From IMG/VR virus record IMGVR_UViG_3300036820_000649, positions 1 through 22,192 of that record: a stretch of 22,192 bases of DNA; one strand, given 5' to 3'. Origin of the DNA: a virus. Made by a program: the position numbers and the translations under genes. This document shows, piece after piece, positions 11,389 to 15,412 of the stretch; positions within the stretch are counted from its first letter, which is position 1; the number at the start of each line of letters is the position of its first letter. The notes beneath the pieces were generated by a model. That model made no database searches and was not told the DNA's origin. It saw only the letters and a program-made list of their open reading frames with translations.

Positions 11389-12375
11389 CTACGTTCCGAT
11401 TGGTGCGCCTGGCCAAGTAGCCGTCAGGCGAGGATCAAACCCTGTTATGCCAGCTCTTGGGCGGTCCATGGATCTTGTGAGATGGTCCACGATCCATCTT
11501 CCGAGCAGTGTGCCGTCCAGATACACGTCTCCCTGCAAGGGCGCCCCCTGAGATTCCGCAGGCGGGGGCACAGACGATGGGAGAACAGGGAATACGGCAG
11601 TCGACTGGGTCGCCGGCGATGGCGAATGCGCGGCCTCAAACGCCGTCGGCGTCTGCTTCGCCGGCGAACGCGGCGCACTCATTGCAGCCAATCCGTGGGA
11701 ATCTTGCTCTTTATCCGAACCGGAATTGTCCGCAGACCCGACAGGTTGTCTCGGTGGCTGTGGCTCCACCATCGGTGCGACATTGGCCGACCGATCCATT
11801 CCCTTCGAAGGTATTGGTCCCACGGCGAGACGGGACGACGAGGGATCAGATCGTGAAAGCCAGGTTTGCACTCGATCCAACACGCGAGCAGGCGAGACAG
11901 CCGTTCGATCGAATTCGGCGTTGCCAGCGGCACTGACAACACCCGGCGACGACGCAGGCGAAACGGAAAGTGAGGTCTTCAATCTCTGCGCGGGTGCAGT
12001 TGCCGATTGGCCTGTTGCTCCAGATCTTGATAATGCGGACACGTCGCCTTGAGCCCCGGGTCCAAGTTGAATGAATGGACCAGCATGTCCTTGGTTATTC
12101 GACAGACGAGCGTCCTCTGCGGCCGGTGGGCTTGCCAATCGGACGTGCGCATTGCCGGGTAAGCTTACTGGCGACCAGGGAAGGCCCGGGGCGGCTTGTC
12201 GCGGGATCGACCCGACCTTCATCTGATCGGCGATCTGGCGAAGTTGCTTCAATCCCGTCGCGCTGTTGTCAATCGCGCGGTTTAGCGTACCGAAATCCTG
12301 GCAGATGGAGGCCAATCCCTCAGACACGCCGTTGTCCAAGGCGAGTGCGATACCGACGGTATAGGGGTCAGCCAT
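11389..12375 (-). CDS. Short tape-measure protein candidate (328 aa)
   Basis: Sits where the tape measure belongs: after the tail chaperones and before gpU-gpX-gpD. Residues 1-55 form a helical N-terminus (MADPYTVGIALALDNGV.EGLA.I...F..LN.AI) typical of tail length proteins. The last 50 residues include PLQGDVYLDGTLLGRWIVDHL, a beta/helix cap common at tape-measure C-termini. The centre (about 60-270) is Pro/Ala/Ser/Gly-rich and low in hydrophobic residues, not the long coiled coil or membrane segments expected. At 328 residues it is far shorter than most myovirus tape measures. It is either a genuine mini tape measure for a very short tail or a degenerate/other assembly protein. ATG 12375 follows TAG after 3 nt. 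Confidence 0.7.
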   Translation of the reverse strand: MADPYTVGIALALDNGVSEGLASICQDFGTLNRAIDNSATGLKQLRQIADQMKVGSIPRQAAPGLPWSPVSLPGNAHVRLASPPAAEDARLSNNQGHAGPFIQLGPGAQGDVSALSRSGATGQSATAPAQRLKTSLSVSPASSPGVVSAAGNAEFDRTAVSPARVLDRVQTWLSRSDPSSSRLAVGPIPSKGMDRSANVAPMVEPQPPRQPVGSADNSGSDKEQDSHGLAAMSAPRSPAKQTPTAFEAAHSPSPATQSTAVFPVLPSSVPPPAESQGAPLQGDVYLDGTLLGRWIVDHLTRSMDRPRAGITGFDPRLTATWPGAPIGT

Positions 12376-12378
12376 GAT

Positions 12379-12741
12379 CTAGCTTTCGGACAATAGCCGC
12401 GCGAATGCTTCCGCAATTCTCTCCGCAAGGACTGGACCCAACCGATCCGTGGCCAGATCCGAAGGCGATGGTGTCGATAGCGCCGGTGTACCCCTGTCCA
12501 GATCAAGGCCTCTGGCTTGTCGTAATCCATCCAGACCGCGATTTCGTGCGGATCGGTCTACGGCGGTCGGAAGTTGGGCGTCCTCGAAATCTTGGGTCAC
12601 GAGTCCTTCACCGGGGATGCTCGGACTGGCCTCAGCCAGATTGGTGTCGGCGAACCCTATGAGAGCCTCCTGCACTATCGCCTCGACGTCCATGCGTTCA
12701 AGCTGAGTGCGGAGCTGCCGCAATCCATCGACACGGATCAC
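12379..12741 (-). CDS. Hypothetical tail-assembly region protein (120 aa)
   Basis: I do not recognise a family. It lies between the frameshifted tail chaperone and the tape measure. Residues 1-30 look helical (VDGLRQLRTQLERMDVEAIVQ), followed by a polar, Asp/Pro/Arg-rich middle that repeats a GLRQ motif (DGLRQLRT and DGLRQARG), and an amphipathic C-terminal helix (LAERIAEAFARLLSES). GTG at 12741 is chosen as start because it overlaps the TGA that ends the frameshift extension (GTGA) and has GGAGG about 8 nt upstream; the longer start at 12756 would lie inside the preceding product. It could be a tape-measure partner or an accessory chaperone. Confidence 0.7.
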   Translation of the reverse strand: MIRVDGLRQLRTQLERMDVEAIVQEALIGFADTNLAEASPSIPGEGLVTQDFEDAQLPTAVDRSARNRGLDGLRQARGLDLDRGTPALSTPSPSDLATDRLGPVLAERIAEAFARLLSES

Positions 12742-13255
12742 GGCCCTTCCCTCCACTTCAAGACGCTCCAGTCAAAATCGCGACCGTCGATCGTGCCGAG
12801 CGCAACGATCCAGGCCAGTCGTTCGTCGGGTGGCAAGCTGAAAGCGACGTCGAATGGCACCCCGTTCCTGACCAGGAACAGACAGTCGATCAGGTCAGGG
12901 TGCCTACTCAGTTTCCCGCGGAGGTCGCCATCTCTGATGGATCCGGCTGGATTCCAGCCCCAAGAGCATCCGCGGCGGCGGCAATGCCCGCGTCGCCCAG
13001 TCGCGACACCATGGCTTCAATGTGCTGCTCGCAGGTCGCGGGGGGCACAGGCACATCATCGAGTGCGACGACCGAGCAGGCCAGCATAGCCATGCCGAGC
13101 CACGGCTGGTTCTGGGCCAGGTAAGGGCCCGCTGCCTTAAACAAGCGAAGCTTGTCGAGCGCCGTCATCCGGCGAAACGTGAGGCGCCGCCCATTCGTAT
13201 CTGTAACTGTCCACGCTGTGGTGGCCACCGCAACGATGGCTTCCGATGGGGTCAT
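12738..13255 (-). CDS. Tail assembly chaperone, -1 frameshift fusion (172 aa)
   Basis: Longer product made if ribosomes slip back one base on GGGAAAC (12917-12911) just before the TGA of the short chaperone. After the slip the frame reads CTG (12911-12909) and stays open for 57 codons: LSRHPDLIDCLFLVRNG, VPFDVAFSLPPDERLAW, then a tail ending KWREGP and TGA 12740-12738. The extension is well formed (hydrophobic helix, PPDERLAW, DFDW) and reads like a T-type domain of lambda G/GT or the P2 E/E' pair. The two products usually coat the tape measure before the tube grows. There is no independent ATG start for the second frame. Frameshifting itself is predicted. Confidence 0.75.
12908..12917 (-). 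promoter_or_regulatory. Programmed -1 ribosomal frameshift site GGGAAAC followed by TGA
   Basis: The heptamer GGGAAAC occupies 12917-12911 on the minus strand and is phased as G GGA AAC with the chaperone frame, directly before the TGA stop. It fits the X XXY YYZ rule and is close to the GGGAAAG site of lambda G-T. The -1 frame is open from the heptamer to 12738. Confidence 0.8.
12908..13255 (-). CDS. Tail assembly chaperone, short form (115 aa)
   Basis: Lies between tail tube and tape measure, the invariant position for the lambda G / P2 E type chaperone. The protein (MTPSEAIVAVATTAWTV..., FRRMTALDKLRLFKAAGP, AMLACSVVALDDVPVPPAT, ending SAGN) is mostly helical after a small N-terminal strand set; the FRRMTALDKLRLFK stretch is characteristic of this group in alphaproteobacterial phages. 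ATG 13255 is used because it overlaps the tail tube TGA (TGATG) and has GGAG upstream; the open frame reaching 13321 would overlap the tube gene. The stop TGA (12910-12908) sits right on the slippery site. It acts in the cytoplasm and is absent from the finished virion. Confidence 0.82.
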   Translation of the reverse strand: MTPSEAIVAVATTAWTVTDTNGRRLTFRRMTALDKLRLFKAAGPYLAQNQPWLGMAMLACSVVALDDVPVPPATCEQHIEAMVSRLGDAGIAAAADALGAGIQPDPSEMATSAGN

Positions 13256-13683
13256 CAGATCCGTCTCCGCCGCGCCGCGAAGAACTCCAGCTTCTGCTTG
13301 ACAGCGCTGTCGCCCTTCCATTGACCCGCATTCACAAGTTTGAATACGACACCGTCATATTCATAGGTCGATGTTGATCCGTCCGTTTCCGATACATACT
13401 GATACATGAACCCAGCCGGCACAACATTTCCACTGTAATACTGCAGTTCCGCGCTGGCGATAAAGTCGTCAACGGTCGAGTCACCGCGCTCAATCTCGAA
13501 ACTGCCTTCCCAGCCTTTGGGGATTTCCGTCCCCATCAGGGTCCCATCCAGCCGGTCTACCCGAACCGATTGGGTCAATTGTCGCGACTCGAAGCCAGTG
13601 ACATGCGTCAAATCAACACGACCCGCCGGCCCCATCACAACGAGCTGGGTATCGCGACCGATCGAGAAATTGGTTAGCGCCAC
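13255..13683 (-). CDS. Tail tube protein (142 aa)
   Basis: Inner tube subunit of a contractile tail. The compact beta-barrel pattern is visible: TQLVVMGPAGRVDLTHVTGFESRQ, then GTLMGTEIPKGWEGSFEIERG, VDDFIASAELQYYSG, QYVSETDGSTSTYEYDGVVFKLVNAG and a basic C-terminus (FFAARRRRI). Tube subunits with the G.EIPKGW.GSFE motif follow the sheath in many alphaproteobacterial myophages. The start is GTG at 13683 with AAGGAG about 8 nt before it, overlapping the sheath TAA (13698-13696). The gene ends at TGA 13257-13255, which overlaps the chaperone start. Confidence 0.88.
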   Translation of the reverse strand: MALTNFSIGRDTQLVVMGPAGRVDLTHVTGFESRQLTQSVRVDRLDGTLMGTEIPKGWEGSFEIERGDSTVDDFIASAELQYYSGNVVPAGFMYQYVSETDGSTSTYEYDGVVFKLVNAGQWKGDSAVKQKLEFFAARRRRI

Positions 13684-13695
13684 GATACAATCTCC

Positions 13696-15258
13696 TTATG
13701 AAGGCTGGCCACTTGGCAGGGTTTGGACAGACACTTGAACGGTTTGCCCTCCCTCAATATTGACAATGAATTTCTCGTTGATCGCCTGATACTGAACCTG
13801 TGCATCGGACTGAACGTATCCGAGCCCGGTCCGGCTTGATGGGTTATTCGAGGTGTCACAGATGACGCTGAACGGCAGACTTCCGTCCACGCTACCGAGC
13901 AGCCCCTGATTGAACATGTTCTGCAGGAAGGAGAGTTGAGTCGCTCGGATTTGCTGGAACAGGTTTGCGTTGATGACCTGCCCCACATACAGCCCCATCC
14001 CCGCGGCCAGCGTCGCCGCGATGTAATTGGTCAACCTTGTGTAGTTGTCGCCGTTCGTCGACGGGTTCGATGACGAATTATGCCCACCGCGAACACCCCA
14101 GTAATTTCCACCCGGCTGCGGGTTCGCAATCACATCGATACCCGCCCCAAGCAGCACCGCAAGATCCGCCAGCGAATAGGATGTCGCCTGCCCGGAACCA
14201 GGAGCGCCTGACTTCTGACTGCCGATGACCCCGTACAGCGGCTTGTTCAGACTCGACTGTTCCGGTGACAGATTGGCCAATCGGCCCGCGGCGAAGCCCT
14301 GGGGAGAGACCAGTCGTACAGTATTGTTGACACTGTCAGACCACCACAACCAGTCGCCAAACATCAGCTTGGCCGCATAGCTGTCCAGGCCCGCCTGTTG
14401 CATCGTGTTGACCGCGTTCTGAATAGTGTCCCCCGCCGGACCGGTCAGGATCATATAGACGCCTTCCTGCAGGCCGAACGCCGCCTGCGTGGTCCACTGA
14501 GTCGCATCGTCAGCGTCGGCCAGCAGCGCGATGCCGCAGCCCTGGCCACGCAATGCATACATTCCAGCACGCGGAAGCGTATCGCTACCGACCAACTGGC
14601 TGGCGGCGACGCTGCTCGCACCATCAGTGCCTGGGGTGCTGGTGCCGAGCGTGACGGAAAAGGCCGCCGGCACCGCGGTTGCACCACCACTGCTGGCAAT
14701 CACGAACTGCGAAGGACCACGCTGAATGCCCTGACCGGTATTGACCGCGGCTGCCAGCGCCGTCCAGAACGTCGCGCCCGTGCCTCCGATGTTGTCGTAG
14801 ACCTCGGGCATCAGGCCCGGCAGAGCGACCGTCAGACGCCATGTATTCGGCTGCGATCCAGGATTCAGCGCGAGTGCCAGGTTGTTTCCCAGCGAACCAG
14901 TGTAGAGTGCGGTGAACGTAAACGTCGTCCCGAGAACCAAAGTCTGTGCGGCCGTGTCAGTTCCATCAGACACACGAATGCATCGAAAATTCTGTGCGCC
15001 CTGCTGCACCGAGACAGCAACCTGGGTGCCCATGTCATATTTCCGCGCCATCACGGGTCCAAAATTCTGCGCGTAATCAGCCATGGTTGCGACAATGACG
15101 GGCTGAGCGACGGGCCCCCAGGACGCCGTCCCGACAGCGCCGACGACATTTGTCGGGACGCCATTCAACACCAGGTTCTGTGGCGGAACGATCTGGACGT
15201 ACAGGTCTGGTACGACGAGCGCCGTCGTGTTCAAACTGCCTTGCTGAACAATCGGCAT
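13696..15258 (-). CDS. Contractile tail sheath protein (520 aa)
   Basis: Sheath subunit of a contractile tail, which defines this as a myovirus-type tail. The start ATG 15258 has AGGAGG about 9 nt upstream. The N-terminus (MPIVQQGSLNTTALVVPDLYVQI.PP) and GAVGTASWGPVAQPVIVATMADYAQNFGP are the family beginning; FRCIRVSDGTDTAAQ and the central beta domain follow, then the C-terminal conserved region: INANLFQQIRATQLSFLQNMFNQGLLG and the closing VQYQAINEKFIVNIE...QTVQVSVQT. The C-terminal part forms the inner ring bound to the tube. The frame extends to 15381 but those 41 extra residues are Arg-rich and lack family character. The length is typical. Confidence 0.93.
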   Translation of the reverse strand: MPIVQQGSLNTTALVVPDLYVQIVPPQNLVLNGVPTNVVGAVGTASWGPVAQPVIVATMADYAQNFGPVMARKYDMGTQVAVSVQQGAQNFRCIRVSDGTDTAAQTLVLGTTFTFTALYTGSLGNNLALALNPGSQPNTWRLTVALPGLMPEVYDNIGGTGATFWTALAAAVNTGQGIQRGPSQFVIASSGGATAVPAAFSVTLGTSTPGTDGASSVAASQLVGSDTLPRAGMYALRGQGCGIALLADADDATQWTTQAAFGLQEGVYMILTGPAGDTIQNAVNTMQQAGLDSYAAKLMFGDWLWWSDSVNNTVRLVSPQGFAAGRLANLSPEQSSLNKPLYGVIGSQKSGAPGSGQATSYSLADLAVLLGAGIDVIANPQPGGNYWGVRGGHNSSSNPSTNGDNYTRLTNYIAATLAAGMGLYVGQVINANLFQQIRATQLSFLQNMFNQGLLGSVDGSLPFSVICDTSNNPSSRTGLGYVQSDAQVQYQAINEKFIVNIEGGQTVQVSVQTLPSGQPS

Positions 15259-15262
15259 GGAC

Positions 15263-15412
15263 CTAGCCCTCCTTGCTCGGCGAAGGCTGAACCCGCACGA
15301 CAGCGTGGGCGTGCTCTCCGGCCAATACCTGGGCGATCTTCGTCGGATCAGTGATGATGTCGCCTCGCGCGAAGCCACCAAATGGCATCACGACGACCAA
15401 ATGCATATCCAT
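15263..15412 (-). CDS. Small protein between tail terminator and sheath (49 aa)
   Basis: Too short for many gene callers but well supported. ATG 15412 lies 14 nt after the previous TGA, with GGAG about 7 nt before it, and TAG (15265-15263) sits inside the sheath Shine-Dalgarno region. The product begins MDMHLVVVMPFGGFARGD, continues IITDPTKIAQVLAGEHAHAV and ends PSPSKEG. The strand-rich start plus the DP.KI..VLAGEH segment look like a folded mini-domain. Mu and related phages have a small gene at the same place before the sheath, but I do not claim homology. Function is unknown; sheath assembly is the contextual guess. Confidence 0.72.
   Translation of the reverse strand: MDMHLVVVMPFGGFARGDIITDPTKIAQVLAGEHAHAVVRVQPSPSKEG

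Follow-up and report, generated by a model that had tools for sequence, protein, structure and literature searches.

Related frameshift systems

The G/GT-type frameshift of long-tailed phages was reportedly described by Xu, Hendrix and Duda in 2004. In phage lambda, G and T bind the tape measure protein and the tail tube, respectively; −1 slippage on Escherichia coli ribosomes is weaker at A_AAC than at A_AAG (reviewed in PMC5009743). The Caulobacter phages phiCbK and Colossus carry the heptamers AAAAAAC and GGGAAAC, respectively (PMC3556154). In Burkholderia phage KL1 (gp18/gp19), GGGAAAC lies directly before the TGA of the chaperone gene and a −1 product is predicted (PMC3483164).

The locus described here lies in a 22,192-nt viral record (IMG/VR IMGVR_UViG_3300036820_000649), which was analysed over its whole length and is referred to as the window. 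Its heptamer is placed as in KL1, but the KL1 chaperone has 142 residues, its −1 extension is about twice as long and there is no evident similarity between the proteins. KL1 also differs downstream of the heptamer, where the predicted fold is weak (−7.8 kcal/mol) and the GGCACCC/GGGTGCC stem of the window is absent. phiCbK and Colossus, likened here by their published heptamers, are phages of alphaproteobacteria that use the same two heptamers as the window and its relatives, but they are siphophages with very long tails. Unlike lambda and the G/GT sites of long-tailed phages, the window has a heptamer that ends in C (an Asn codon) and abuts the stop codon, an extension of only ~57 residues, and a conserved hairpin 6 nt downstream.

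The relatives found in bacterial genomes are mostly Acetobacteraceae metagenome-assembled genomes (MAGs); among annotated phages, the Komagataeibacter phages phiKX1 and phiKX2 are the sole relatives. A tblastn search of annotated phages with the window's chaperone returned nothing; phiKX1 was reached via the protein at the tail tube position. ORFs 580 and 590 of phiKX1 (BCZ76063.1, BCZ76064.1) form a homologous locus with A AAA AAC TGA, a hairpin and an extension of the type LSRHP...GVPWDVA, although the chaperone is 27% identical to that of the window. The locus (L082; LC644975.1, 4429–4970) is deposited as two hypothetical proteins, with the fusion not annotated. Its A AAA AAC TGA and conserved −1 frame indicate that the two would be made as one frameshift fusion. 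The literature collection searched contained no paper on a frameshift of this phage group.

Organization of the chaperone locus

The 0 frame of the chaperone gene ends in GCG (12919–12917), GGA (12916–12914), AAC (12913–12911) and TGA (12910–12908) on the minus strand, in the sequence, phase and position given by the original prediction (Table 1). The −1 frame is entered with the CTG at 12911, reads CTG AGT AGG CAC ... and closes at the stop codon 12740–12738, which overlaps the next gene in a GTGA at 12741–12738. Overlaps of the ATGA, GTGA or TTGA type occur at the end of the extension in many relatives. The 57 codons and the fusion length of 172 residues (115 + 57) put forward in the original prediction also hold. 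GGGAAAC occurs three times in the window versus 2.3 times expected by chance, so the heptamer alone is no evidence for a frameshift and the case rests on comparison with homologues. Readthrough of the in-frame TGA was considered and rejected because the 0 frame of the window closes again 5 codons on.

Table 1. Features of the chaperone locus, with positions in the window
Feature	Position	Strand	Description
Tail sheath protein	13699..15306	−	PHROG 23, E 2e-45
Upstream neighbour, tail tube protein position	13255..13683	−	PHROG 12993
0-frame ORF, probable tail assembly chaperone (G-like)	12908..13255	−	ATG start, 115 aa
Putative slippery heptamer	12911..12917	−	G GGA AAC, followed immediately by TGA (12910–12908)
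Heptamer–hairpin spacer	12905..12910	−	6 nt, TGAGTA, includes the stop codon; spacing constant
Hairpin 5′ arm (putative stimulatory)	12896..12904	−	GGCACCCTG
Hairpin 3′ arm	12856..12864	−	CGGGGTGCC
−1 frame extension (putatively T-like)	12738..12911	−	57 codons + stop
Next ORF	12379..12741	−	GTG start, GTGA overlap with the extension stop

Identity of the chaperone and genomic context

Profile, fold and gene order agree in assigning the 0-frame protein as a tail assembly chaperone, and they lend moderate support to the identity first proposed for it. All 22 aligned family members match PHROG 20383, a family of unknown function, and 10 of the 22 match PHROG 508, ‘tail assembly chaperone’ (best E 6e-4). 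The top PDB match found by Foldseek for an AlphaFold2 model of the protein (pLDDT 82.6) is the HK97 tail assembly chaperone (2ob9; probability 0.69, E 0.21); the remaining PDB matches, among the matches listed, have probabilities of 0.12 or less. The BFVD matches include named tail assembly chaperones. A sequence search of solved structures gave no match, Pfam gave nothing useful for the chaperone or the extension, and the extension has no match in PHROG.

The gene order is terminase, portal, major head protein, tail sheath, tube-position protein and chaperone, followed by baseplate and fibre genes. This places the chaperone gene after the genes of the major tail proteins and ahead of the tape measure region, as in G/GT-type loci; the tube role of 13255–13683 is assigned from its place between the sheath and the chaperone. 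The gene content of the 22-kb record indicates a contractile-tailed phage, and the best reading is an Acetobacteraceae-type myophage.

No tape measure protein was recognised by profile in the window. The ORF at the tape measure position (11389–12375) encodes 328 residues, without a convincing match to any profile of tape measure proteins. ORFs at this position have roughly 250–420 residues in many relatives and 742 in phiKX1. The short ORF may reflect either a short tail or a different kind of tape measure. The small ORF that separates it from the chaperone gene (12379–12741) has no family match, and in four relatives (L003, L013, L072 and L084) a single ORF of ~300–390 residues replaces both.

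Conservation of the heptamer and the extension

Homologous loci were collected by protein searches and scored with the extension peptide as the only anchor, leaving the DNA free. Of the 131 distinct loci, 130 have a correctly phased slippery heptamer, 99 with GGGAAAC and 31 with AAAAAAC. The one exception (L067) has GGGAAC through a 1-nt deletion that breaks the relation between the frames, and either a faulty assembly or a defective gene would seem to account for it; this is the single case of an extension that persists beside a lost heptamer. Loci that the peptide filter missed were also checked, and GGGAAAC is kept wherever the sequence reaches far enough. A match in Micromonospora (L090) was rejected as a false relative.

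The heptamer switches as a block: GCG GGA AAC alternates with GCA AAA AAC, and even the silent third position of the Ala codon changes along with it. Its last base is always C, though AAT (Asn) and TTG (Leu) would be silent in the two frames. A DNA pattern in which the first three bases of the heptamer were left open retrieved 94 additional loci, and all 94 have GGG or AAA there. Eight of the 131 rows have TCG, TTA, TCA or TGT in place of the abutting stop codon and terminate later; since these rows still keep the heptamer and the extension, the presence of the heptamer is not a by-product of the stop. The placement and conservation of the heptamer are far beyond chance.

The extension is under purifying selection as protein in the −1 frame only: pN/pS is 0.24 in this frame (0.29 for codons 20–50) versus 1.5 and 2.0 in the other frames (range 1.4–2.0), and none of 103 rows has a −1 stop. 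That both the heptamer and the −1 frame are conserved in relatives bears out the check proposed with the original prediction. Two outcomes named there as counter-evidence, a second gene with a start of its own and heptamer loss beside an open extension, were also examined, and both results favour the prediction. The locus would be a G/GT-type programmed −1 frameshift, a reading to which we give a probability of about 95% on comparative sequence grounds.

Three further observations concern the extension and its locus. The extension of L276 has a 1-nt deletion that scrambles the C-terminus after GGGGTGCC. A further chaperone subfamily (L301 and several genomes of the pattern scan) has an extension of the type LSRHPALIEVAALVGNGVP and shares the heptamer and the hairpin, and some genomes contain two different copies.

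A conserved hairpin downstream of the heptamer

The comparison also brought out an RNA hairpin that had no place in the original prediction. Its 9-bp stem starts 6 nt past the heptamer and pairs 12904–12896 with 12864–12856 (GGCACCC(C/T)G with CGGGGTGCC); the apical part, 31 nt long, forms additional structure in many relatives. The predicted folding energy of the window sequence is −32 kcal/mol versus −17.7 for dinucleotide shuffles (MFE z −4.7), and under silent codon resampling the comparison is −29.3 versus −13.9 (z −4.1). At least 6 of the 9 stem pairs are contained in the MFE structure of 118 of 125 rows. Across an alignment of 24 rows, the stem register gives pairing in 90.7% of cells; with the stem slid, the figure is 38–51%.

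The synonymous sites of the hairpin arms are frozen to bases compatible with pairing. Among the 103 GGGAAAC rows, Gly17 is GGG and Val18 is GTG in all 103, Arg3 is encoded only by CGG or AGG, Pro5 only by CCC or CCT, and His4 by CAC in 101. In the same rows, Gly39, Gly43, Val22, Val36, Pro19 and Pro27 of the extension use all four codons. Changes on both sides of a pair (compensatory changes) are confined to three upper-stem pairs, and the lower stem shows conservation and G–U changes; RNAalifold finds this lower stem, without covariation support. Two small lineages (L262/L263 and L272–L275) keep the heptamer and the extension and lack the canonical stem, so the hairpin is not universal, and RNAalifold run over all rows retains only part of the stem for this reason.

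Among 299 genomes belonging to the same order as an Acetobacteraceae MAG, 55 contain the heptamer–hairpin pattern, always with a length of 59 nt, and none contains a reversed control pattern. The search pattern contains the hairpin, and these counts therefore show breadth rather than independent proof; loci found by the hairpin pattern were used only for the free heptamer bases and left out as evidence for the hairpin. Rfam has no match to any described family, even at E 1. The strongest hairpin of those folded belongs to L261, in which a near-perfect predicted stem of ~24 bp (−38.6 kcal/mol) directly follows the heptamer.

A stable, conserved structure a few nucleotides past the heptamer is the arrangement of −1 programmed frameshift sites with a 3′ stimulatory structure, and the hairpin probably promotes the slip. 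The codons of its arms could instead be frozen by another cause, such as the binding of a protein or an RNA, or some other constraint at the nucleotide level, with the frameshift itself still real. The arms do encode conserved residues (RHP and GVP), and the two lineages without the stem would fit such a constraint. The silent variants that are allowed are, however, just those that keep the pairing, and the constant 6-nt spacing from the heptamer and the compensatory changes of the upper stem argue in the same direction. We consider a constraint unrelated to frameshifting unlikely.

Translation of the extension

The extension was originally described as having no start codon of its own. Taken literally this does not hold: start-type codons are present, notably a GTG at 12860–12858 (codon 18) with AGGA 5 nt upstream. 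None of them is conserved among the relatives, however, as is the case in G/GT-type frameshifts. These codons allow a highly improbable reading in which the extension forms a small gene by itself and has its own start, used through coupling or by reinitiation downstream of the TGA. It draws on the in-frame GTG, found at codon 18 in 66 of 66 near relatives, on the Shine–Dalgarno-like AGGA of the window and on the annotation of phiKX1 as two genes. Yet the GTG is replaced by ATT or ATA in L262/L263 and L272–L275 with the frame still open and is therefore not a required start, and its invariance elsewhere is equally explained by hairpin pairing. The start annotated in phiKX1, an ATG at extension codon 7, is likewise not conserved and corresponds to CTG or TTT in relatives. 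Codons 1–17, ahead of the GTG, are conserved as protein, and a separate gene would leave the heptamer unexplained.

Joining of the frames by transcriptional rather than ribosomal slippage is very improbable. The 31 rows with AAAAAAC do provide a run of six A, but GGGAAAC, in which only three A follow one another, is found in the window and in 98 other rows, and the X XXY YYZ form, its phase and the downstream hairpin fit ribosomal slippage. A −1 frame that has decayed or is open only by chance, next to a coincidental heptamer, might be suggested by the chance-level frequency of GGGAAAC in the window. This reading is refuted by the conserved heptamer, frame and length and by the pN/pS of 0.24, and has a negligible probability.

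Proposed mechanism

In the G/GT-type reading, most ribosomes would read GGA AAC and stop at the TGA, releasing the 115-residue chaperone (G). In a minority, the tRNAs in the P and A sites would move back by one base on G-GGA-AAC and pair anew with GGG and AAA. The slip would be aided by the hairpin, whose stem starts 6 nt downstream, and the slipped ribosomes would read CTG AGT AGG and on through the 57 codons to give the 172-residue fusion (GT). An upstream Shine–Dalgarno-like stimulator of the kind in dnaX was sought and none was seen; the upstream positions vary freely in relatives. Counting against this reading is the lower slippage of A_AAC sites, compared with A_AAG, on E. coli ribosomes. 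If the roles are like those in lambda, G, the abundant part, would coat the tape measure protein, and recruitment of the tail tube protein would fall to the rarer T part; a fixed, minor ratio of GT to G would then matter. We infer the slippage, its rate, the stimulating role of the hairpin and the function of T from sequence; selection acts on the silent sites of both the heptamer and the hairpin.

It seems probable that these elements make up a previously undescribed frameshift cassette, widely conserved in phages and prophages of the Acetobacteraceae type. The cassette would consist of XXXAAAC, a 6-nt spacer that holds the stop codon and a protein-coding hairpin within a fixed 59-nt span, maintained across chaperones that are ~25–30% identical. 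Slippage in this cassette may be adapted to tRNA-Asn (AAC throughout, with the doubly silent AAT not used) and be combined with a strong hairpin, whereas E. coli favours AAG sites.

Implications for tail assembly genes

The kind of frameshift is already known and the general picture of phage tail assembly is unchanged. The window locus is a new, strongly supported case, and the conserved hairpin is its less ordinary feature; we regard this combination as new because KL1 lacks the hairpin, Rfam lacks the element and no paper on a frameshift in this group was found in the literature searched. What is added here is comparative proof from more than 100 related sequences together with the conserved RNA hairpin. 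The analysis gives PHROG 20383 a likely function as a tail assembly chaperone, and it shows that in deposited phage genomes, phiKX1 among them, what would be one product is divided between two genes. It also provides a conserved RNA element for the study of slippage at A_AAC by alphaproteobacterial ribosomes.
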